NCBI RefSeq assembly: GCF_034424315.1
Contig: NZ_CP139972.1
Span: 4,216,001 to 4,280,000, forward strand
Source of the DNA: Chitinophaga sancti
Lineage (GTDB): Bacteria; Bacteroidota; Bacteroidia; Chitinophagales; Chitinophagaceae
Direction: 5' to 3'
Length of the DNA stretch: 64,000 bases
The notes beneath the pieces were generated by a model that had not been told where the DNA came from, did no database searches, and saw only the letters and a program-made list of their open reading frames with translations. Every line of letters starts with the position of its first letter. Positions within the stretch are counted from its first letter, which is position 1. Below, one piece after another: positions 9,001 to 51,837 of this stretch. The position numbers and the translations under genes are program-made.

Positions 9001-10611
9001 TCAATACCCCGCATTCTGCTTCAAATTCCCATTCTTATTCAACTCCGTCCTTGGTATCGGGTACAAACTCCTATAATCCCCATTCGGACTATGCGAAAAC
9101 CAACTCTTCTTCGTAAACACCCCAAACCTGATCATATCCTGCCTCCTTCTGCCCTCCTGACTAAACTCCCATCCCAACTCATCCAAAAATCTTCCATATG
9201 TCACATCACTGCCCCCCTCAAACGTGGAATCATTATGATTCCTCAACCCATAACTATAACTACTCCCTTTCAGCAAATCCGCCGCAGTTACCACCGCCTT
9301 CGCAGGATTCGTAGTAAAAGAACGCTGACGTACCAACGTTACCAACGCCGCCGCATCCGCCGTCTTCCCCGTACGCAATAAACTCTCCGCCTTCATCATC
9401 AACACATCCGCATACCTGAACAAAGGCCAGTCATTACTCAACTGCACCTGCGCCTTCTGCTTAATCTCAAACTTCCCTAATCTATACCCATGCACCTCCT
9501 CAGACGCATCTATCCCCGGCACCACGTTAATATAATTCAGCGGCTTCCCTGTATAAGCACCCATCGTACACATCAACTCCTCCCCACTCGCACTATACTG
9601 CTGCCCCTTAATCCAGTTATCCTTCAACCGGTCATCATCCGCATCATACGTACTGATAAACTGCGGTATCGCACAAATACCACCCCAGGGTGTTGACTTC
9701 AGATTATACGTCGCCTGGTTCGCCGGCTGCAAAGTCTCCATATGAATATCAAATGCATTCCAGTTCGTTACATACGTCTCATCAAAAGGCAATGCAAAAA
9801 TGATCTCAGGTGAGTTCTCATTCTCCGTAATGAACACATTTTTCTGCGCAGCCTCCAATGCAAAGCCTACATTTGAATTCATGATCGTATCACACTGCTT
9901 TATACACTCCTCCCAGGCCGGTGTGCCACTATACACCTCCGCATTCAGATACATCTTTGCCAGCAAGGCATGCGCTGCCCACTGGTTAAATTTCCCATAC
10001 GCCGCTCCACCATTCTTCGCACTCAGCAATGGCAGATAAGTATTCACCTCATGCACAATAAATTCGTATACCTCTTTCCGTGTGTTCTGTGTAGGCAAAT
10101 AACCATCCGGCACCTTGAACGTCGTCACCAATGGTACATTCCCATAAAAATCACACAACACATAATAATAGGACGCCCGCAATACATGCAATTCCGCCAG
10201 CGTAGCATGCTTGGCCGCTGAATCAGAAATAGGTATGATCCCTGACTCCAGCTGGTAAATCACCCGGTTACAATTCGTAATCCCCGCATACGCACGCCCC
10301 CATGTTTGCACCACTATATCATCGTCCGCTGTCCAGGTATGCTCATGTATACGCAGGTAAACCCCACCATCTACCCAGCCATTCGGCCTCGCAGGTATCA
10401 CCACCTCATCCCCCGATACTTCCTCTGCACGGAATAAACCGTTCCAGTCATTCAGCACATAACGCCAATTTACATACGCAGTACCTACCAGGCTCGCCAA
10501 ATCTTCCGTCGTCGGATCAAACTGGCTATCAATGATCTTATTATAACTGGTATCCTTTAGTTTGGTACAGGCCATTGCAAACAGCACTGCTATCCATATA
10601 TATCTTTTCAT
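9001..10611 (-). CDS. SusD/RagB-family glycan-binding lipoprotein
   Basis: 536 aa. Lipoprotein signal MKRYIWIAVLFAMAC with lipobox FAMAC (Cys15). SusD-type TPR helices occupy most of the N-terminal half (for example LHVLRASYYYVLCDFYGNVPLV at about 146-167), and the conserved C-terminal end includes WEFSQEGRRRQDMIRFG followed by YPIPRTELNKNGNLKQNAGY. SusD proteins sit on the outer membrane as the lid of a SusC transporter and bind the glycan. The gene starts 11 bases after susC (10623-13931) and is followed by the GH127 enzyme, so arabinose-containing glycans are the likely cargo; this is inferred from the enzyme only. Confidence 0.94.
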   Translation of the reverse strand: MKRYIWIAVLFAMACTKLKDTSYNKIIDSQFDPTTEDLASLVGTAYVNWRYVLNDWNGLFRAEEVSGDEVVIPARPNGWVDGGVYLRIHEHTWTADDDIVVQTWGRAYAGITNCNRVIYQLESGIIPISDSAAKHATLAELHVLRASYYYVLCDFYGNVPLVTTFKVPDGYLPTQNTRKEVYEFIVHEVNTYLPLLSAKNGGAAYGKFNQWAAHALLAKMYLNAEVYSGTPAWEECIKQCDTIMNSNVGFALEAAQKNVFITENENSPEIIFALPFDETYVTNWNAFDIHMETLQPANQATYNLKSTPWGGICAIPQFISTYDADDDRLKDNWIKGQQYSASGEELMCTMGAYTGKPLNYINVVPGIDASEEVHGYRLGKFEIKQKAQVQLSNDWPLFRYADVLMMKAESLLRTGKTADAAALVTLVRQRSFTTNPAKAVVTAADLLKGSSYSYGLRNHNDSTFEGGSDVTYGRFLDELGWEFSQEGRRRQDMIRFGVFTKKSWFSHSPNGDYRSLYPIPRTELNKNGNLKQNAGY

Positions 10612-10622
10612 TGCTTTTGGTT

Positions 10623-13600
10623 TTAAAAATTCAGATTCACACCCACAGTAAATGTTCTGACAGAAGGATACTTATCCCTTTCATCCACACCAGGCGCCAG
10701 GCCCAGTCTGTTCACCTCCGGATCTATCCCCTTGTAACCTGTCAGGGTCAGCGTATTCAACGTTGACGCATATACCCTCGCCCCATGGATGTACTTATTC
10801 TGAATATGACTGAAATTATAACCTATTGTAATGTTATCTATCTTCCAGAAATCACCGTTTTCCACATAATTACTATTGAACTCCAGCGGCATATCCGTAC
10901 TCAGCACCGCCTTACCATACACCTTATCATACGCTGATTTCAGACGGTTATACTGCTGCAAACCAGTATTCTCATAATACATGCGCTGTACATTCAGTAT
11001 CTGGTATTTAAATGCACCACGCATCGTAATATTCAGATCAAAATTCTTATACCGGAATGTATTGTTCCATCCACCATAATACTTTGGCAAACCATTACCC
11101 AATACCCGCTTGTCCTCAAATGCATGCTGGTAATTACTATACGCCTGCGGTTTTCCATCACGGCCTTCATAGATCCACTTTCCCTCACTGGAAATATCCA
11201 CTACCTTAAAACCATAGAAATCACCAATATTACGTCCTACTCTCACCAGGCTTGTAAACGTCTGAATAGGTTCCCCTGTTCCTCCTTCTGTTATGTAATC
11301 CACACTGGTCTGGTACAATTCATTACTCAGCGTAATCAGTTTATTCGTATTCGTAGAGAACATCAGGCTGGTACTCCACTCAAATTCACTCGTCTTCACC
11401 GGAATGATATTCACCATTACTTCCAAACCCTTGTTCTCCATCTTACCTACGTTCGCACGGGTACGATCATATAAATTCGGCGGACTAGGTACCTGGTAAT
11501 CATACAGCAAACCGTTGATCCTCCTGATATAATAATCCACATTACCACTCACACGACCATTAAATAATGTATAGTCGATCCCAAAATTGGATTCATGCTT
11601 CTCTTCCCAACGCAGTTTATCATTCGGATTCTGAGAAGGTCCCAATGTCTGGATCCATACCCCATTATTATACACATAATCACCATAACTCAGTATCCCC
11701 ACACCCAGGAACAGATCCGTAGGCTGTGTACCCGTTACACCATAACCCGCACGGAGTTTCAAATCCGTCAGCCAGCTGATCCCTTTCATAAAAGGCTCAT
11801 TGCTCAGTCGCCAGCCCAATGACACCGCAGGGAAATTACCCCATGGCTGTTTCGTACCGTACAACTGACTCGCTGCCTCATGCCTCATAGAAGCCAGCAA
11901 TAAATACTTATCATTATAACTATAAGTAGCACGACCAAAGAAACCAATCAGGTTCGTTTCTGATTTCTCACTGAACTCCGGTGCCAGCCCTTGTTTCAGC
12001 GCATATCCTATACCAATATCATTATAAGAAAAACGGTCAGTAGGAAAATCCCAGTTCTGCATATAATGATTGCGGTAATCAGTTTCCTGGTAACTATATC
12101 CTCCCATCACACTGAACTTATGTTTCCCAATATTCTTATTATACTGTGCAGTCAGTTCCATCAGCCGTTGCACATTCTGCAATGAACCCACAGAAGCATA
12201 CCCGTTCTTCCCATCACGCAATGTGGATATGTTTTGTTTGGTTTCTGAATAACCACGCTCTTCATTATATCGGGTATAAGAAAATAAGGCAGACAATTTC
12301 AATCCTTCTATTGGCAGCAAGGTGATCGTACTGTTCATACGTGTGTTCTGAGACGTATTTTCACCATCGCTCTCATACAGCCTGGACAAAGGATTCTCAT
12401 AGTTGAACAAACCTGTCTGTTCAAACCATTTGCCGGTAGAATCGTAAATCGGAGAGGTCGGGTTCCGGATCAGTGCCTGCCTGTACGTATAGCCATTAAA
12501 ACTATAACCATCCCCGGTAGTTGTAAACTTATTGTTGGAATTCAATAAACCTACATTGATACGCAGCTTATCATCCAGCATACTGTGGTTGATGTCAATC
12601 CTGCCTGTAAACGTATTGTTGTCTGACTTCTTCATAATCCCTTCCAATGCACGATAGTTCACGTTCGCGAGGTAATTCGTCTTACTGTTACCACCCCGGA
12701 AAGTCAGGTTATGCACATGTGTGATCGGGTCCTGGGTAATAGCTTTCTGCCAATCAGTATTAGCACCCAGATCCCATGATTTATCACGGGTACCTTCAGC
12801 TATCTGCCGGCGATAATCTGCAGCAGTCAGCATATCCGGCTTACGGGCAATTGTCTGCGTACCCACATATCCACTATAATCTACAGAACTCGTATACGCG
12901 CCACTGGGTCTGCGGGTAGTCACGATGATCACCCCATTCGTACCACGGGTCCCATAAATCGCAGCCGCAGAGCCATCTTTCAGTACATCCATAGATTCAA
13001 TATCTTCCGGGGCAACCGTTTTCAGATCACCGGGAATACCATCGATCAATACCAGCGGACTACTATTCGCACCTAACAAAGTCGTATTACCACGCAGCAG
13101 TATCTGTGTACCACTGGTAGGGTCACCACTTGGTGCAGAGATAGTCAGCCCCGCCACCTTGCCCTGCAATAACTGCCCCGCATCCAACACATTCCCCTTC
13201 ACAAAATTTTCAGATTTTACGGTAGCCACAGAACTGGTGAGATCACCTTTACGCTGACTACCATACCCAATCACCACCACGTCCTGCAGGGAGTTTTCAC
13301 TCAATACCAGGCGGATCGTAAGCTGGCTCGCTCCTTTCACTGGTACTACCTGTGTTTTATACCCTACATAACTAACCAGTAGTGTATCATTCTCAGTGAT
13401 ACTATTCAGCGTGAAAATACCTTTCTCATTAGAGATCGTACCCGCGTGAGAACCTTTGATGGAGATACTCACACCAGGCAAGGGATCACCTTTCTCATCG
13501 GTGATCACCCCAGAAATAGGTTTGGCAAAATCAACCGGGATCGACTTTTTAATAATGATGTAATGCCCATCCTGGATATAAGCAAGATCATTCGGACCCA

Positions 13601-43463: not shown

Positions 43464-43495
43464 AAAAGCTTTTACCCATGCAGGTAAAAGCTTTT
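43464..43495. terminator. Bidirectional terminator between MmcQ/YjbR and TauE/SafE genes
   Basis: AAAAGCTTTTACC (43464-43476) and GGTAAAAGCTTTT (43483-43495), loop catgca, T-run to 43497. Confidence 0.9.
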
Positions 43496-44304: not shown

Positions 44305-44624
44305 ATACAGGTTAGACACACTCCTGCCGGCTGGCAGGTCGTCGGTTGGTTTTGATGAATTTCCCTTTTTAGCAAATAAGTGTCGCGAACAAGCCAAAAG
44401 TACAGTGTTGGCGCAGGTTCAACAAAATTATCCGGGGTTCAGGCCATTACTAAAAGTTATGGGATATAACTTTATGTTATAATTCTGACAGTCGTGGCTT
44501 TAAGTGGGATATAGCCTACCAAGTCTAGGAAATATAGGCAGTCAGGGGATTTGGTAGGCAAATCCCCTGACTGCCATTTCTTATCTGAAAACAAGCCTTA
44601 TTACAATTGAGAAATCAAATTACT
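44305..44624. other. Gap between eboF and TauE/SafE gene
   Basis: 320 bases with one long hairpin (44537-44575) near eboF and no other recognised element. Confidence 0.5.
44537..44575 (-). terminator. Probable end-of-operon hairpin after eboF
   Basis: Perfect 16-base arms GGCAGTCAGGGGATTT (44537-44552) and AAATCCCCTGACTGCC (44560-44575), loop of seven. Only a weak TATATTT follows on the minus strand, so termination may be partial. Confidence 0.65.
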
Positions 44625-45989
44625 TTATTGCATCGTTTTCCAGATCACATCGTAAATATCCACCGCTTCTACCGGCCTCGGCTCCTCTCCCTTTGCTGTG
44701 ATCAATACCGGGTGATACTGACTATCTTCTGAAATCCGGCCATGAGAACCTTTTATTAAGGTCGCATCCAGCGGAATCACATTCATCAGGTAGCGGAAAC
44801 CTAATTTCTTCTTCAGGAGCTTAAAACCTGCCTTCAATTTGATCAATGGATCAGCAGGATTCATAAACATCTCTACCGGATCATAACCCGGCTTACGATG
44901 TATATCCACCAGTCTCGCAAAGTCAGGCGCCTTTGCATCATCCAGCCAGTAATAATAAGTAAACCAGCTATTGGTATCTGCTACCAATACTAACTCACCA
45001 CTTCTTGCATGATGCATATGATGTTTACGCTTGCCCTCACGATCCAGTACCAGCTGAATACCCGCTGTGTTTTCCACAATCGCTCTCACCTTTTTATATA
45101 CAGACGGATCGTTCACATACACATGCGCTATCTGGTGATCTGCTACTACAAAAGCTTTTGAAGCCCCTGCATCCAGCAGTTCCAAACCACGTTCCTCTCT
45201 CACCGCGATCAAACCCTCCTGCCGGAAAGTACGATTCAGGTGAATAGGGTTATTCACATTCGTAATACCATATTCTGAAAGAATGATCACACGGGTATCC
45301 TTCTTTTCATAATGCGTGACCAGTTGTTTTACCACTTCATCTATCTCATGCAGTTCCTTACTGATGCGTGACAGATCCTGCCCGAATTTCTGTAAACAAT
45401 AATCCAAATGAGGCAGATAGATCAAGGTCAAAGTAGGATCATACAAATCATCCGTCATCACAGATGCATCGGCAATCCACTGTGTTGATTTGATGTTCGC
45501 ACCCGGCCCCCAGAACTGAAACAAGGGGAAAGTGCCTAACTCTTTTTGCAGATGATCACGCAGTGATGATGGATGTGCATAACAATCCGGTGCCTTACGG
45601 CCATCAGATAAATACTGTGGACGAGGTGTCACAGAATAATCTGCGCTGGAATACATGTTATACCACCAAAACATTTTGGATACCGTAAAGGAAGGATCTA
45701 TCTTCCTGGCCCGCTCCCATATCTTTGGTGCTTCTACCAGCTTGTTTGATTGCTTCCAGAATTTCACTTCACAATCCTGACGGTCATACCAGCCATTACC
45801 AACAATGCCATGCTCCGCAGGCCATTGTCCGGTGACATAAGTACTCTGAACCGCTGTGGTGACTGCAGGCACCATAGGTTTAATTGTGCGCAACTGGTGC
45901 TGCTGTACATACGCCTTCAAAAAAGGGGTATGCTCTCCAATCAGAGAGGAGGAGAGTCCTACGACATCAATAACAACTGTCTTTTTCAT
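44625..45989 (-). CDS. eboF: EboF, alkaline-phosphatase-superfamily phosphodiesterase-like protein
   Basis: 454 aa from the ATG at 45989 (MKKTVVIDVVGLSSSLIG); an upstream in-frame start would overlap eboE by 26 bases. The protein belongs to the type I phosphodiesterase/nucleotide pyrophosphatase fold: Asp8 and Thr44/Thr45 (VPAVTTAVQST) match metal and nucleophile, and GSHG closes the site. At two places the usual ligands differ: the SDHG motif is SEYG (Glu239-Tyr240), and the DxxxH element is Asp196-Tyr-Cys-Leu-Gln. It is the last gene of the ebo operon, 40 bases after eboE. The substrate is unknown; a phosphoester of the traffic metabolite is a fair guess. Confidence 0.88.
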   Translation of the reverse strand: MKKTVVIDVVGLSSSLIGEHTPFLKAYVQQHQLRTIKPMVPAVTTAVQSTYVTGQWPAEHGIVGNGWYDRQDCEVKFWKQSNKLVEAPKIWERARKIDPSFTVSKMFWWYNMYSSADYSVTPRPQYLSDGRKAPDCYAHPSSLRDHLQKELGTFPLFQFWGPGANIKSTQWIADASVMTDDLYDPTLTLIYLPHLDYCLQKFGQDLSRISKELHEIDEVVKQLVTHYEKKDTRVIILSEYGITNVNNPIHLNRTFRQEGLIAVREERGLELLDAGASKAFVVADHQIAHVYVNDPSVYKKVRAIVENTAGIQLVLDREGKRKHHMHHARSGELVLVADTNSWFTYYYWLDDAKAPDFARLVDIHRKPGYDPVEMFMNPADPLIKLKAGFKLLKKKLGFRYLMNVIPLDATLIKGSHGRISEDSQYHPVLITAKGEEPRPVEAVDIYDVIWKTMQ

Positions 45990-46029
45990 GATCGTTGAGC
46001 CATTCTTAGGATATAATTCGTGCTCAAAT

Positions 46030-47247
46030 CTATACTTCCTTTTTCTGAATTCCAAGCTGTTGCATTACCCAGCCCACTTCACGCGAAACGGATTGATCCA
46101 TAGGAAGTTTTAACTCAGCAGGCAGTACACCCCAGGTATAGGTTTCTACCTCCATGTGCTGCGTGAATAACTGTTCCCTTTGTAATTGCAGTACATCACG
46201 AATATCAGACTGTGTACTAAATAAGCGTTCGTAGTGTTCTAAAAATACAGGAACATGGAAATGTGAACGCCACTCTACCACCTCCTTGTTATTCACATCC
46301 TCCAGTGCCTGTGGCAGATCCGGATAATGCATAAAACCACCCTTGGCTTTCCTGGCAATTACCTGGTGTAGGTAAGTCGGTTCATTGAATGCACTGAATG
46401 CCTGTGCCACCGCATTTCTCTCCGCAATATCTTCCGGCATAGCGGCTTTGAGAGCTGCACTGATCTGCAGCTTGCCTACTTTCAATCCATACTCCTCCAA
46501 CCTGCCTAATACAAAAGAAGGAGATTCATATACTAACGCGAAATGGCATACGTCATAACACAACTGAATATGCCTTTTAATAGCAGCACCAGCTTCTTTT
46601 TCTGTCATATCAAACTGATCCAGCAGATAGTTGATACCTAATGGCATCAGGTAGGCAAAATACCAGTCAATGTACTCCTGCATATTCTCCATCAATCCAT
46701 CCGGCTCAGGCTCAATATCCAGGTGCATAACTGGACCACCTGCACGATGTATACGTACTAACTGCCCTAATACCTGGAGCATATTCAAAGTAGCATCTTC
46801 CATAGCAGCTTCCAGGTCATCATGCCACAATTTGTACGACAACGGAGCAGTAGAGATTCCTCCTTCCATACCTGCCGGCAACAAAGCAGCCAGAATGCGG
46901 AATAGCCGTGAGGTGTACTCCACACGCTCAGCAGTGGTCCAGTCAGGTGCATGTACCTGGTCCTTTACCACAGTATGATGAAAGCCTCCGTAAGGGAAAC
47001 CATTCATCGTAAATACATAACAATTCTGCTCTTCCAACCAATGTTTGAAAGCAAGCAGGTTCGTTTCTTTTGACAACTCTAAACTGGCTGTATTTGCAAG
47101 ACGCAAACCAATACCAAAAGCTCGATCAGGTGAAACAGCAGATTTAATAGCTGGAATATATCGTTGCAACTGCGCGAAATGATCTGGCCAGGTTTCACCT
47201 GGGTGGATATTCGTGCAATAGGAAAGATGACCTGTAATTGTTTGCAT
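46030..47247 (-). CDS. eboE: EboE, TIM-barrel metabolite traffic protein
   Basis: 405 aa. The N-terminal HLSYCTNIHPGETWPDHFAQ, the middle VMHLDIEPEPDGLMENMQEY and CYDVCHFALVYESP place it with the xylose-isomerase-like TIM-barrel proteins named EboE. Acidic and His residues in these stretches (Asp, Glu, Glu and His) look like a metal site. The enzyme probably acts on a sugar or cyclitol phosphate. It starts 12 bases after eboD and is followed by eboF. The assignment comes from the family pattern and the unmistakable order of the cluster; biochemical function is not established. Confidence 0.9.
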   Translation of the reverse strand: MQTITGHLSYCTNIHPGETWPDHFAQLQRYIPAIKSAVSPDRAFGIGLRLANTASLELSKETNLLAFKHWLEEQNCYVFTMNGFPYGGFHHTVVKDQVHAPDWTTAERVEYTSRLFRILAALLPAGMEGGISTAPLSYKLWHDDLEAAMEDATLNMLQVLGQLVRIHRAGGPVMHLDIEPEPDGLMENMQEYIDWYFAYLMPLGINYLLDQFDMTEKEAGAAIKRHIQLCYDVCHFALVYESPSFVLGRLEEYGLKVGKLQISAALKAAMPEDIAERNAVAQAFSAFNEPTYLHQVIARKAKGGFMHYPDLPQALEDVNNKEVVEWRSHFHVPVFLEHYERLFSTQSDIRDVLQLQREQLFTQHMEVETYTWGVLPAELKLPMDQSVSREVGWVMQQLGIQKKEV

Positions 47248-47259
47248 GAAATTAGGTTT

Positions 47260-48414
47260 TTAAGAAAGCGAGCGGGCTGTTTCCACAGCCTTATCTAAGA
47301 GCGTCAGATCCATTGTATGAACTTCTGCTGCCACCCCGATTCCCTTTAATAAACATATGGTCAGTCTGCCACCAAGATGCTCTCTGAACTCTTCCAGTCC
47401 TTTGATGACAGGTGATGGCACACCATCTTTATTCTCCATCAATGGGTGGTATACCGGCAATTGTAATTGCTGCAATAACTTTACTATCCGCAAAGCTGCT
47501 GCCTGATCCATCCAACCTAGCAGTGAAGCATATATACTATCTACTGCCATACCGATAGACACCGCTTCGCCATGACGCAGATCGAAATTTGACAACTGCT
47601 CCAGTTTATGGGCGCTCCAATGCCCAAAATCCAAAGGTCTTGAAGACCCGCTTTCAAACGGATCGCCGGCACCACCTATGTGTGCCATGTGCAAAGCTGC
47701 ACAACGATATACCAGTTCCTGCATAAGCGGAAGATCCCCATTTGCAAGCGGCGCAGCGTTTGCTTCCAGCCATTCAAAGAAAGGCGCATCTTTGATCAAT
47801 GCCACCTTAACTGCTTCTGCAATACCTGCACGCCAGTCCTTCGGATCTAAAGTAGTCAGCAGGTGTGCATCATTGAATACCGCTGCTGGTGGTGCAAAAC
47901 TGCCCAGGAAGTTTTTCTTCCCTTTGTAGTTGACCCCATTCTTAACACCTACACCAGAATCATTCTGTGATAATACGGTGCTAGGTATACGAATATGACG
48001 TACACCTCTGTGAGATACTGCTGCTGCAAAACCTACCAGGTCCAGCACAGCACCACCACCCATACCGATTACAAATGAATGGCGATCGATGGAATACTGA
48101 TCAATGGCATCTACAAGGCTGTAAAAAAGCGGCATATCGTTTTTCACAGCTTCGCCACCAGGAATGACCAGGATCTCGCCAGCAAGTTCAAAACCATTCA
48201 CAGCTTCGCAATAATGTCTGATTTGTGCGGGAAGGTTTGGATGATGTTTAATCAATCCTTCATCAGCAATTACTAATAAGCGCTTGCTGAGATTGTTCGC
48301 GGCCTGGCTTTCCAGGTAGTTTTTAAGCAGTGGGTTCCCTGAGTCGAAGAGGTGGGTTGTAAAGAATACTTCGTAGGAGTATGGTACACTGAATGTCTGT
48401 TGAATAACGTGCAT
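47260..48414 (-). CDS. eboD: EboD, sugar-phosphate cyclase related to 3-dehydroquinate synthase
   Basis: 384 aa. NAD site GMGGGAVLDLVGF (117-129), the NDSGVGVKNGVNYKGKKN segment, the metal ligands Glu200 (GIAEAVK), His265 (DFGHWSAHKLE) and His281 (RHGEAVSIGM). The metal and NAD sites of dehydroquinate synthases are thus kept, but DFGHWSAHKLE differs from the NFGHTxGHAIE of true AroB, so another cyclitol product is likely. It is the fourth gene of the ebo operon. A strong terminator lies in the 126 bases between eboC and this gene, so eboDEF may be expressed less than, or separately from, eboABC. No promoter box was found in that gap. Confidence 0.92.
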   Translation of the reverse strand: MHVIQQTFSVPYSYEVFFTTHLFDSGNPLLKNYLESQAANNLSKRLLVIADEGLIKHHPNLPAQIRHYCEAVNGFELAGEILVIPGGEAVKNDMPLFYSLVDAIDQYSIDRHSFVIGMGGGAVLDLVGFAAAVSHRGVRHIRIPSTVLSQNDSGVGVKNGVNYKGKKNFLGSFAPPAAVFNDAHLLTTLDPKDWRAGIAEAVKVALIKDAPFFEWLEANAAPLANGDLPLMQELVYRCAALHMAHIGGAGDPFESGSSRPLDFGHWSAHKLEQLSNFDLRHGEAVSIGMAVDSIYASLLGWMDQAAALRIVKLLQQLQLPVYHPLMENKDGVPSPVIKGLEEFREHLGGRLTICLLKGIGVAAEVHTMDLTLLDKAVETARSLS

Positions 48415-48484
48415 AGCTATGATTGAATGCTCATCAAATAATTAAAGCCGTTTTAAAAGTACAAAACTGCCAGCAGCAAAAAAA

Positions 48485-48511
48485 ATCGCTTTTACCTGCG
48501 GTAAAAGCGAT
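48485..48511 (-). terminator. Intrinsic terminator inside the ebo operon, between eboC and eboD
   Basis: Perfect 12-base arms ATCGCTTTTACC (48485-48496) and GGTAAAAGCGAT (48500-48511), loop tgc; eight A at 48478-48485 form the U-run on the minus strand. Confidence 0.92.
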
Positions 48512-48540
48512 ATCAATAAATTATAAATCAAATAAAATTA

Positions 48541-49512
48541 TCAGGTTACAGCAAAAGCTTTTGCCATCAGTAATGATATTGGCAACAATATCAACACCAA
48601 TAATGCATGTGGTAATGTAGAAAACGCAGCTACCCAGGCAGCATTCATTGCAACTAAAGCAATAATGCCTCCTTTCACAGCCTTACCAATATTAGGACCG
48701 GTAGGCTCTTTCATTGCAGTCCACAGCGGCCTGTTGATCAGTATGATGAATAAGATGATAAAAGGAGAAGCCAATAGTAAATGCTCATTGTAATACGCCA
48801 GCGCGAACATAGTACCATATACCACCGCATAGCAAACAGCTGCAACCCGCATAGTAGCCGGGGTACCGCCGTGTACTTCACCACGGCTGATGTAAGTCAC
48901 AGCAGCAATGTAGATCACAGGGATGATGCCCATCCACCAGTACGTTTGCAAAGCAGGCAGCACTATGCTGATCCCTAACAATAAATTCAACCCCCTGCAA
49001 AGCCCCATATTCACAGGGCCCCAAGCCTGGTGTTTCCCCCATTTATTATACACCAGCGCACTCACAGTTATACCCAGGGCAATAAAGCCGGTGATACGAC
49101 CTACAGTAAATGCTGCCAGTATACCTACTAATAGCAGGTAAGAACCCAACACAATTGCCTGCGCCAAAGAAATAATGCCACTTGGTATCGGGCGTTCAGG
49201 ACGTTCTACTTTGTCCAGTTTTGCATCCATCACATCGTTGAACACAACTCCTCCTCCATACAACCCTACTGTGGCCAGGCAAAGACAAAGTAATGGCAAC
49301 AGGTGATCCAGATAATTGACAACCTCAGATCCCAAAAAACCGGATATAGCCATCCCGGCCAGTACATCTGCAACCGCAGTTACGATATTGGCAGGACGCA
49401 TTAAACGTAAATATCCTAGTAATTTGCTAATAATATAATTCACCGGGTACACGGGTTTTCTCAATGACGAATGACGAAATACGAATTGCAATTGATCCAT
49501 ATTCACATACAT
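48541..49512 (-). CDS. eboC: EboC, UbiA-like prenyltransferase
   Basis: 323 aa with about eight to nine membrane helices. UbiA enzymes move a prenyl chain to an acceptor in the inner membrane. The first aspartate motif is present (VVFNDVMDAKLDKVERPERP, Asp93, Asp96, Asp100), but no Asp occurs anywhere after about residue 100, so the second DxxxD motif of classical UbiA enzymes is missing; the place where it would be expected reads TYISRGEVHGGTPATM. This may be a feature of EboC proteins. Third gene of the ebo operon, followed by a terminator. Confidence 0.9.
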   Translation of the reverse strand: MYVNMDQLQFVFRHSSLRKPVYPVNYIISKLLGYLRLMRPANIVTAVADVLAGMAISGFLGSEVVNYLDHLLPLLCLCLATVGLYGGGVVFNDVMDAKLDKVERPERPIPSGIISLAQAIVLGSYLLLVGILAAFTVGRITGFIALGITVSALVYNKWGKHQAWGPVNMGLCRGLNLLLGISIVLPALQTYWWMGIIPVIYIAAVTYISRGEVHGGTPATMRVAAVCYAVVYGTMFALAYYNEHLLLASPFIILFIILINRPLWTAMKEPTGPNIGKAVKGGIIALVAMNAAWVAAFSTLPHALLVLILLPISLLMAKAFAVT

Positions 49513-49545
49513 GATTTAAATTGTCAGCACGACGAACAATCCCCT

Positions 49546-49565
49546 GCCGGGTTCAAATACCCGGC
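49546..49565 (-). other. Hairpin between eboB and eboC
   Basis: GCCGGGT (49546-49552) pairs with ACCCGGC (49559-49565), loop tcaaat; a second small stem CCTG/CAGG around six T lies at about 49581-49595. No U-run on the minus strand, so it may be an mRNA processing or stability element. Confidence 0.55.
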
Positions 49566-49622
49566 GATGGCATACGACATGCCTGTTTTTTCAGGACACC
49601 TGTAAATTCTTAATACTGCTGT

Positions 49623-50606
49623 TTAACTAATTATAGTAGACTGAGCGTTTCGGAAAGGTTGTTGACCACCACGTAAAACAGTACTTCCGTTGAACTTCAG
49701 GCTCTGGTCTATTTGTTTCACCATCTCAAAATCCGCTTCATTAATTTGCCCACTTTGGGCAAAGGCTGTTATAGCATTGCGGAAAGTTACCAAATGAATG
49801 TCATTCGAGTCAATACCACTTTCGTGCATGAGGGCCGCCGTTTTTGGTACAGCCAATGGATCACTGATACCCCAATCAGCTGCAGAATTGATCATAATTC
49901 GCTCACTGCCATACTGTTTCACGACTTCCACCATCCGTTCATTCCCCATTTTGGTAAATGGATAAATGGTAAATGCAGCCCAGAAACCCCTGTCTAACAC
50001 CTCTTTTACGGTTTCTTCATTGTTATGGTCTACAATCACCATCTTAGGGTCAATACCATGTTCAATGGCAATGTCCATACTACGCGTAGTGCCTCTCTTT
50101 TTATCTCTGTGTGGGGTATGGATCTGCACAGGTAAACCCGCTTCCTTAGCGAGTTCCAGCTGTGCACGATAATATTTTTCTTCTGCAGGAGTCTGGTCAT
50201 CAAAACCAATTTCACCAACACCTACTACCCCTTCTTTGTAAATAAAAAGCGGTAATATTTCCATCACAGCTGCTGCCAGTTTTTCGTTGTTGGCTTCTTT
50301 ACTGTTCAGGCCTATTGTGCAATAATGTTTGATCCCAAATTGTGAGGAACGAAAACGCTCCCAGCCGATCAGACTGTTAAAATAATCCTTGAAAGTATCC
50401 ACACCTGTACGGGGTTGCCCCAGCCAGAAAGCAGGCTCAATAACTGCTGTAATACCAGCCGCTGCCATAGCCTGATAATCGTCTGTGGTGCGGCTTGTCA
50501 TGTGAATATGCGGATCAAAAAACTGCATTCCTTTTATGTGATCCATAAACGCGGGTACCATTGTCAATGGCTGGGCTGTTTCTTTCAGTTCGTGACTACA
50601 ACACAT
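49623..50606 (-). CDS. eboB: EboB, TatD-like metal-dependent hydrolase
   Basis: 327 aa. Amidohydrolase/TatD metal ligands are complete: His33-x-His35 (FFDPHIHMTSR), Glu132 (GVGEIGFDD), His163 (VQIHTPHRD), His194 (IVDHNNEE) and Asp244 (SAADWG). It is thus likely an active cytoplasmic hydrolase. Substrate unknown. The ATG at 50606 is the first in frame; MVPAFMDHIKG 15 residues later is an alternative start. It is the second gene of the ebo operon, with 201 bases before it and 110 after it. Confidence 0.92.
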   Translation of the reverse strand: MCCSHELKETAQPLTMVPAFMDHIKGMQFFDPHIHMTSRTTDDYQAMAAAGITAVIEPAFWLGQPRTGVDTFKDYFNSLIGWERFRSSQFGIKHYCTIGLNSKEANNEKLAAAVMEILPLFIYKEGVVGVGEIGFDDQTPAEEKYYRAQLELAKEAGLPVQIHTPHRDKKRGTTRSMDIAIEHGIDPKMVIVDHNNEETVKEVLDRGFWAAFTIYPFTKMGNERMVEVVKQYGSERIMINSAADWGISDPLAVPKTAALMHESGIDSNDIHLVTFRNAITAFAQSGQINEADFEMVKQIDQSLKFNGSTVLRGGQQPFRNAQSTIIS

Positions 50607-50807
50607 GTCAAAATATTTTCGTGAGACCTGGTAATTTGTTTTAAAATCAATGTTACCTGTTGCAATTTTACAGGATATACATTTTACGTGTGATACACGT
50701 TTATGCTATTCGGTGTTAATTCCGGTTTTTCGCAGGTTCATATCATGAATTCCGGTTATACCTTTGCATTTTTTATTGCAGATAGCATGGTGAATATGCA
50801 TGCAACA

Positions 50808-51686
50808 CTATAGCGAGCTTGCTTTTTCTGCAACCGTCACCCACGTCAGCGACTCATTGGCTATCGCAGCAGCCAGTTCCGGCGATTGCAGCAGCAATGC
50901 TTTTGCAGGACCAAACCCCGTTTGAGCGCAGGCCAAAGCAGCCGCTTCCTTATCTACAACCTGATCAGATGCCCGGAGACGATTAATATCAGGCAGGATA
51001 TCATTGTCAATGAAAGGAGCGATCAAACGCCATAACATGGGATTAATTTTCCGGCCGGCCGCCCAGCGTTCATGTGCATAATCACGCAGGATCTGCACCA
51101 GTTCCGGATTAGCCCGTTCGTCAAGTCCCGTGATCAGGTGCACCGGCTTATCCGTAAAGATCGCCTTCATCACCAGCTGATTCCAGGCTGGTTTATCCAG
51201 GTACTGTGCCGGGTAAGGATTGTGTACCATAATAGCTTCCAGCACCCCGCCGATGTTTGAGCGGACACCTTCAGCAGTGCACAGCTTCCACTCCTCAGGG
51301 TATGCCAGCAATGGCAATGCCCCATAAAGCGTAATCTGCTCATTCATGTCCGCTGCCGAAAAGAGGTCTTCTATCGCAGCCACATAACGGGATCGGTCAT
51401 CCGAAGGTAATTGGAGCAACCACCAGATACGTGCAAGACGATCTAACGTATACCCATAAATGAAAAAGTTATTCGCTTCCGCAATGTGGGTATCCGATAT
51501 AACTTGTTTACCCGTAAAACGTGGCATAGCAGTGAAAGTAATATTGAAGCGCTGAGTAGTCTTCGCTTCCTCTAGCAGCTGTAACTGTTGTTGCAACCAG
51601 TTAAGTGCCTGTGGCGTGGCGTGTGCTGTGATGATAGCGTGTATTCGCTTACTTACCAACGCACTGTCATAATAGTATGGTTCCAT
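50808..51686 (-). CDS. eboA: EboA, first protein of the ebo operon
   Basis: 292 aa, soluble, mostly helical, no signal peptide and no catalytic motif known to me. Stretches such as NNFFIYGYTLDRLARIWWLL, DMNEQITLYGALPLLAYPEEW, RSNIGGVLEAIMVHNPYPAQY and RIHAIITAHATP match the EboA family. The identification is supported by its place at the head of eboB-C-D-E-F. EboA function is not established; in cyanobacteria the cluster is needed to bring the scytonemin monomer to the periplasm. The upstream region has several inverted repeats. Confidence 0.88.
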   Translation of the reverse strand: MEPYYYDSALVSKRIHAIITAHATPQALNWLQQQLQLLEEAKTTQRFNITFTAMPRFTGKQVISDTHIAEANNFFIYGYTLDRLARIWWLLQLPSDDRSRYVAAIEDLFSAADMNEQITLYGALPLLAYPEEWKLCTAEGVRSNIGGVLEAIMVHNPYPAQYLDKPAWNQLVMKAIFTDKPVHLITGLDERANPELVQILRDYAHERWAAGRKINPMLWRLIAPFIDNDILPDINRLRASDQVVDKEAAALACAQTGFGPAKALLLQSPELAAAIANESLTWVTVAEKASSL

Positions 51687-51816: not shown

Positions 51817-51837
51817 GAGAGGCACAGTGTGCCTCTC
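51817..51837 (-). terminator. Terminator-like hairpin downstream of the FG-GAP gene
   Basis: GAGAGGCAC (51817-51825) and GTGCCTCTC (51829-51837), loop agt, with A-rich left flank giving U on the minus strand. Confidence 0.7.

Follow-up and report, generated by a model that had tools for sequence, protein, structure and literature searches.

What do the enzymes of the ebo cluster make? The pathway spans bacteria to algal plastids and is needed for sunscreen export in Nostoc. Here we analysed a stretch of 64,000 nucleotides (the window) from the genome of Chitinophaga sancti (8.42 Mb in a single contig), in which an ebo cluster occupies positions 44625–51686. Our answer, held with moderate confidence, is that this is a complete cluster that would make a membrane-seated prenylated cyclitol through EboD, EboE, EboC, EboB and EboF, with EboA as a scaffold. 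The prenylated-cyclitol carrier is a published hypothesis; what is new here is the comparative part, a pattern in which EboD is exchanged for an inositol-3-phosphate synthase (MIPS) and an isomerase. A natural swap of the ring-making enzyme for an inositol synthase would narrow the chemistry of ebo to a polyhydroxy ring.

As a preliminary description of the window had said, all six open reading frames are present at 44625–51686 on one strand, in the canonical A–F order; the strand is the minus strand. The features of the locus are as follows.

50808–51686, minus strand: eboA, helical-repeat protein (NCBIfam NF035938 domain match; nearly all-helical AlphaFold2 model)
49623–50606, minus strand: eboB, TatD-like metal-dependent hydrolase (PF01026, 63 bits)
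48541–49512, minus strand: eboC, UbiA-like membrane prenyltransferase (NF035940, 397 bits against a cut-off of 250)
48485–48511, minus strand: terminator-like hairpin in the gap between eboC and eboD (perfect 12-bp stem, loop of 3, then TTTTTTTG)
47260–48414, minus strand: eboD, sugar phosphate cyclase apart from AroB (NF004852, 563 bits; separate clade)
46030–47247, minus strand: eboE, xylose-isomerase-like TIM barrel (NF035939, 500 bits against a cut-off of 250)
44625–46055, minus strand: eboF, alkaline-phosphatase-type phosphodiesterase, likely start 45989 (PF01663, 210 bits)
44537–44575, minus strand: strong terminator-like hairpin 3′ of eboF (17-bp stem)

The nearest named relatives at the locus are Chitinophaga silvisoli (L011; 90–99% protein identity) and [Flexibacter] sp. 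ATCC 35208 (L012; 87–96%). The same A–F order on one strand recurs in all 11 loci of named records (with an insert of about 3.5 kb between C and D in L021), so the cluster is not a product of chance and the homologues are clustered in relatives too. Clustering of all six genes is the criterion used in Yurchenko 2016 (PMC5133447; this and the other papers are cited from excerpts), and all six are clustered here. By itself, the cluster in the window is ordinary for Chitinophaga.

The family assignments of the preliminary description held to different degrees. EboC and EboE exceed the cut-offs of their models, and EboD passes a dehydroquinate synthase model (NF004852/PRK06203; 563 bits against a cut-off of 333). 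EboA passes the domain model NF035938 (177.9 bits; cut-off 50) but falls below the cut-off of the longer family model NF035937 (232.2 bits; cut-off 320). EboB and EboF, for which no Ebo-specific NCBIfam model exists, have superfamily-level Pfam matches only (TatD, PF01026; type I phosphodiesterase, PF01663); we assign them on the basis of these matches, their position and their identity (75–99% for EboB and 66–97% for EboF) to the cluster genes of the 11 named loci.

Polar residues of a catalytic kind in EboB, EboC, EboE and EboF are invariant across clusters with and without EboD, wherever they can be aligned. The alignments contain 77, 57, 75 and 75 sequences, respectively, of which 12, 7, 9 and 12 come from loci that lack EboD, such as the MIPS-type clusters described below; rows gapped at a position were left out and the Streptomyces EboC proteins are outside the 57. 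H33, H35, E142, H166, H194 and D244 of EboB, presumably metal ligands as in TatD, are invariant in every row that is not gapped at the position. The same is true of the NDxxDxxxD of EboC (N92, D93, D96 and D100), presumably the prenyl-diphosphate motif of the UbiA superfamily, and of T66 of EboF, presumably its nucleophile. The model of EboE is a xylose-isomerase-like barrel with 57 Foldseek matches at E ≤ 0.001, and nearly all of the 50 matches listed are xylose-isomerase-like TIM barrels. The best is the 3-dehydroshikimate dehydratase AsbF (E = 2.8e-6) and the next a 3-keto-glucoside epimerase, matches that would speak for the predicted fold only.

Quite another possibility is that the Ebo proteins produce no metabolite of their own and instead assemble into a physical complex that translocates a small molecule. 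Such a complex would accord with the AlphaFold2 model of EboA, which is almost entirely helical (pLDDT 88) and HEAT/ARM-like, with a structural match of indecisive strength, and with the finding that each Nostoc ebo mutant made accumulates the same monomer, with no gene-specific intermediates detected (PMC6282210). We nevertheless consider it improbable: five of the six proteins belong to enzyme families, each with invariant catalytic-kind polar residues in 57–77 aligned homologues; EboC is the only one from an integral membrane family; and the exchange of a cyclase for MIPS would make sense for catalysis only.

For the reading that we prefer, a prenyl-cyclitol product, we infer the substrates, the order of steps, the product and its role in the Chitinophaga bacterium as follows. 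EboD would convert a sugar phosphate to a keto-cyclitol; its residues and its place in a tree make sedoheptulose 7-phosphate (S7P; seven carbons, C7) the likelier substrate, with glucose 6-phosphate (six carbons, C6) possible. EboE, as a metal-dependent xylose-isomerase-like barrel, would epimerise or dehydrate the keto-cyclitol ring, and EboC, in the inner membrane, would transfer a prenyl group from a prenyl diphosphate to the ring. EboB (a metal hydrolase) and EboF (a phosphatase or phosphodiesterase) would trim ester or phosphate groups, with EboA serving as a helical-repeat scaffold. Other pathways would use the product where they are present, for example scytonemin monomer export in Nostoc.

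The first of these steps depends on what EboD is. Both the NCBI model PRK06203 and the best matches of EboD in the PDB carry the name 3-dehydroquinate synthase, so that EboD might, as the database names say, simply be a second such enzyme. We regard this as very improbable. D152, K158, N168, E200, K203, H265, H269 and H281, which we take to be the catalytic residues of a cyclase, are kept in 68/68 EboD sequences, and positions 258, 262 and 345 are S or A, D and E in 68/68, whereas AroB has R (10/10), N (10/10) and K (9/9, with one gap) there. The alignment comprised the 68 EboD sequences, 10 AroB sequences (from 10 of the 13 loci tried; the AroB of the window’s own genome, L001, was left out) and four reference cyclases identified by annotated name. 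In a tree of 33 rows, the 19 EboD sequences included form one clade (100/100) away from AroB. EboD is a clade distinct from AroB, without the AroB-type R, N and K. All 11 EboD-bearing genomes checked encode another PF01761 protein besides EboD, and so does the window’s genome, where a second such protein of AroB length, presumed to be the housekeeping AroB, lies elsewhere. The ebo-like clusters with MIPS in EboD’s stead also argue against a dehydroquinate synthase.

The S7P-cyclase and DDGS references are on the same side of the tree as the EboD clade, and AroB and the DOIS reference are on the other; the published tree, as described, agrees on the placement of EboD (PMC5133447). D262 and H346 of EboD are common to the S7P cyclase L086, H269 is replaced by P in L086 and in L088 (nearest 5tpr), and W266 is confined to EboD. 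The one DOIS reference (L087, nearest the solved DOIS 2d2x) is on the AroB side on a very long branch, so its place is unsure; EboD has D and E where this reference has other residues. Together, the residues and the side of the tree hint at a seven-carbon substrate, S7P.

Outside the Bacteroidota, clusters with MIPS and an isomerase in place of EboD were found. A tblastn search with EboE against 72,556 plasmid records matched 47 records, 29 of which (25 Streptomyces, 2 Embleya, 1 Nonomuraea and 1 Gemmatirosa) have MIPS and a PF01261-type isomerase within 10 kb of EboE; MIPS is at most 5.2 kb away, and the isomerase is present in 29/29. EboD stands beside EboE in 14 other plasmid records (8 by coordinates; L067, L069, L077, L083 and two Ketogulonicigenium records by annotation), with one Mycetohabitans record outside the count. 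No fetched ebo locus holds both EboD and MIPS at the score limits used. MIPS was recognized by Pfam (PF07994 and PF01658) in both loci scanned, L065 and L079. Three haloarchaeal loci (L070, L079 and L134) group MIPS with TatD, UbiA, two isomerases and an EboF-like gene; in a fourth, L078, no MIPS lies within range. A gene annotated as ScyD/ScyE family adjoins the MIPS-type cluster of three Streptomyces plasmids (L065:2993–4192, L074:2197–3399 and L080:1936–3135); it has a weak NHL-repeat match in L065 and recalls the scytonemin cluster.

MIPS and an isomerase in place of EboD support a polyhydroxy-cyclitol route. This exchange and the intact EboC motif lend weight to the small prenylated cyclitol that the preliminary description had read from the gene set, which was already the published proposal. 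We also consider it a real prospect, although somewhat short of probable, that ebo consists of a prenyl-cyclitol core (EboB, EboC, EboE and EboF) with interchangeable ring-making front ends, either EboD or MIPS with a PF01261-type isomerase. EboC would in that case act on an inositol- or inosose-like ring as acceptor, the pathway would extend to actinomycetes and, as a variant, to haloarchaea, and the lack of eboD in some Bacteroidota would be replacement rather than loss. A literature search (SCO3241–3243, EboA with inositol, and annotation names), with subscription literature mostly outside its reach, found no paper that describes the MIPS swap, and the word ‘inositol’ is absent from the main text of PMC5133447 and PMC6282210.

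One Bacteroidota genome bears on replacement. Among 49 distinct Bacteroidota genomes with EboE (31 from a phylum sample, 13 from a family sample and 5 more), 48 have EboD within the cluster (in L128 it is truncated where the contig stops). The sole exception, G178 (locus L044), has A-B-C-E-F, with about 160 bases between the E and C matches, and its whole genome encodes one PF01761 protein, which falls with AroB in the tree. G178 has MIPS at L121:8759–9979, directly followed by an isomerase at 9996–10844 that is 44% identical to the Streptomyces ebo isomerase. Isomerase matches (E ≤ 1e-25) are found in 2 of 395 phylum-sampled genomes and in 1 of 395 genomes of an overlapping class sample; the other isomerase genome is G195, where the gene belongs to a MIPS/Gfo-Idh/YcaO/PIG-L cluster that contains no ebo genes. 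On its own, MIPS says little, since 3 of the 16 genomes tested have it, the window’s own among them. In clusters of the G195 kind (Roseomonas, L126; Hymenobacter, L132; G195, L133), MIPS is accompanied by Gfo/Idh/MocA, YcaO, a PF01261-type isomerase and a PIG-L deacetylase, with a GT4 glycosyltransferase annotated in L132; our guess is that they resemble a thiol-cofactor route.

Several points weigh against interchangeable front ends and a cyclitol product. Three Streptomyces plasmid records with EboE have no MIPS match, and no EboE or EboA match was found in the four haloarchaeal clusters (L070, L078, L079 and L134). The isomerase also accompanies MIPS in the non-ebo clusters L126, L132 and L133, and identity to the Streptomyces ebo isomerase is about 51% for these non-ebo copies, compared with 44% for that of G178, which is itself 54% identical to the isomerase of G195; identity therefore leaves the G178 pair untied to ebo. 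The MIPS of G178 is 35–36% identical to Streptomyces MIPS, hardly above the 31–35% of the EboD-bearing genomes G000 and G399. What support is left comes from a single genome, in which a rare gene pair coincides with the sole missing eboD. The node at which EboD meets the S7P-cyclase and DDGS references is weakly supported (83/35) and carries a long-branch warning. MIPS is a C6 enzyme, whereas S7P, the hint for EboD, is C7, so the two front ends may differ in the ring that they make; on ring size, residues and tree lean towards S7P and the MIPS swap towards a C6 ring. Finally, quinolines, 8-HQA among them, are farnesylated by EboC homologues in vitro (6 of 14 aromatic acceptors tested), and the excerpt of that report names no cyclitol as acceptor (PMC9235831).

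An alternative is aromatic prenylation, in which EboC would prenylate a quinoline- or indole-type aromatic acid, the other Ebo proteins would shape the acceptor and EboD would feed aromatic-ring synthesis. UbiA-297, the EboC of Maribacter, and two homologues farnesylate 8-HQA, although the R145A mutant of UbiA-297 is still active (PMC9235831), and the quinoline assay may for that reason reflect promiscuity. The neighbours of ebo elsewhere include aromatic pathways, namely scytonemin (PMC6282210) and the Pseudomonas EDB cluster, which gives indoles (PMC9655573). Type II polyketide genes surround a lone eboE (L071:8977–10155) on one of the three Streptomyces plasmids without MIPS. A ferritin-like protein and a large partner adjoin ebo in Aureibacter (L073:3838–5106), in Mycetohabitans (L069:5903–6961) and in another Bacteroidota genome (L031); PF12902 was shown for L073, and the large partner is without a Pfam match in L069. 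We take the PF12902 protein to be kin of VioB. Against these associations stand the absence of AroB residues from EboD, the use elsewhere of MIPS, which to our knowledge feeds no aromatic synthesis, and the Chitinophaga neighbours scanned or read, none of which is an aromatic-pathway gene. On balance we consider aromatic prenylation unlikely and retain the prenyl-cyclitol.

The preliminary description called the locus an operon, which holds for the A–F order on one strand and is less secure for a single transcript. The intergenic spacing is loose (A–B, 201 bases; B–C, 110; C–D, 126), and the C–D gap contains the terminator-like hairpin (48511–48485), in which seven T come directly after a perfect 12-bp stem. 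The hairpin is the same in L011 and has altered arms in L012; no perfect-stem candidate was found at the C–D gap of L013, L014 and L017, the three further loci of the genus checked. Of 48 Bacteroidota stretches (L022–L064 and L127–L131, some of them truncated where a contig stops), 30 have C and D as same-strand neighbours, 7 have them on opposite strands and 2 have them more than 900 bases apart, while in 9 one of the two genes is outside the stretch; the other junctions are adjacent in 42/48 (A–B), 39/48 (B–C), 45/48 (D–E) and 45/48 (E–F). Genes are inserted at the C–D junction of several cyanobacteria too (Yurchenko 2016, PMC5133447). Owing to the hairpin and to the frequency with which this junction is interrupted in relatives, the highest of any, a single six-gene transcript seems doubtful, and the genes appear to fall into two blocks, ABC and DEF. 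In two Chitinophaga-group genomes, a two-component system (a TPR-histidine kinase and a LuxR-type response regulator) lies between C and D on the opposite strand (L021:5616–8250 and L062:12463–15135). The C–D hairpin shares a core, GCTTTTACC/GGTAAAAGC, with another hairpin of the window at 43464–43495, and a further terminator-like hairpin with a 9-bp stem (51817–51837) precedes eboA by about 130 bases and follows the preceding FG-GAP gene by about 270.

Two gene starts may need revision. As called, eboF has a TTG start and a 26-base overlap with eboE; because homology starts at residue 15–23 in 9 of the 11 named loci, the ATG at 45989 is the likely start, which would remove the overlap. The start of eboC may be downstream of that called, as residue 34 is the first that the family model matches.

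The EboE model matches 31 of 395 phylum-sampled Bacteroidota genomes and 14 of 147 genomes of the family sample (the window’s own genome is included in both), a patchy distribution in the phylum that was the most represented in the 2016 survey of ebo (PMC5133447). In Chitinophaga, the cluster is usually flanked by SusC, SusD and FG-GAP genes at one end and by TauE, YjbR, a DUF885-like peptidase and DUF1080 at the other. FG-GAP, TauE, YjbR and the SusC receptor were named by Pfam; SusD, DUF885 and DUF1080 are names that we presume from the sequence. No biosynthetic gene is apparent among the neighbours examined at the Chitinophaga loci, and L019 and L020, two loci that plainly belong to other genera, share nothing with them beyond the ebo block. 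Six Chitinophaga-group loci (L013–L018) have a gene between eboF and TauE (L013:12646–13311, DUF6992 by Pfam) that is missing from the window.

Much of this agrees with known systems. The ebo operon of Yurchenko 2016 (PMC5133447), from Bacteroidetes, cyanobacteria and eustigmatophyte plastids, has the same six genes, ABCDEF order and families, and likewise an EboD clade apart from AroB on the S7P-cyclase side; that paper already describes the cluster and the order of its genes, puts forward the prenyl-cyclitol hypothesis, notes the misannotation as AroB and includes a Bacteroidetes cluster without eboD, its eboD-less cases being from Leeuwenhoekiella and Planctomycetes among others. Unlike it, the clade of the window has the C–D terminator-like hairpin and SusC/SusD/FG-GAP and TauE flanks, with no biosynthetic partner among the neighbours examined. 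The Nostoc punctiforme proteins (Klicki 2018, PMC6282210) are homologous, with EboA predicted to be a helical-repeat protein in both; there, ebo serves scytonemin monomer export, eboD is nearby in reverse orientation, and loss of any ebo gene studied (eboD not among them) kept the monomer cytoplasmic. The export phenotype and the carrier idea, both based on the scytonemin monomer, are already in that paper. Unlike in Nostoc, no scy-like gene was found among the window neighbours scanned by Pfam. UbiA-297 of Maribacter (PMC9235831), an EboC from an ebo cluster, has an Asp-rich motif of the same class as the EboC of the window; it differs in having in vitro results on aromatic acceptors. The actinomycete SCO3242-type cluster (L065, L074, L075, L076 and L080) unites UbiA, an EboA-domain protein, TatD, EboE and a phosphodiesterase, as the window does, and differs in having inositol-3-phosphate synthase and a PF01261-type isomerase instead of EboD.

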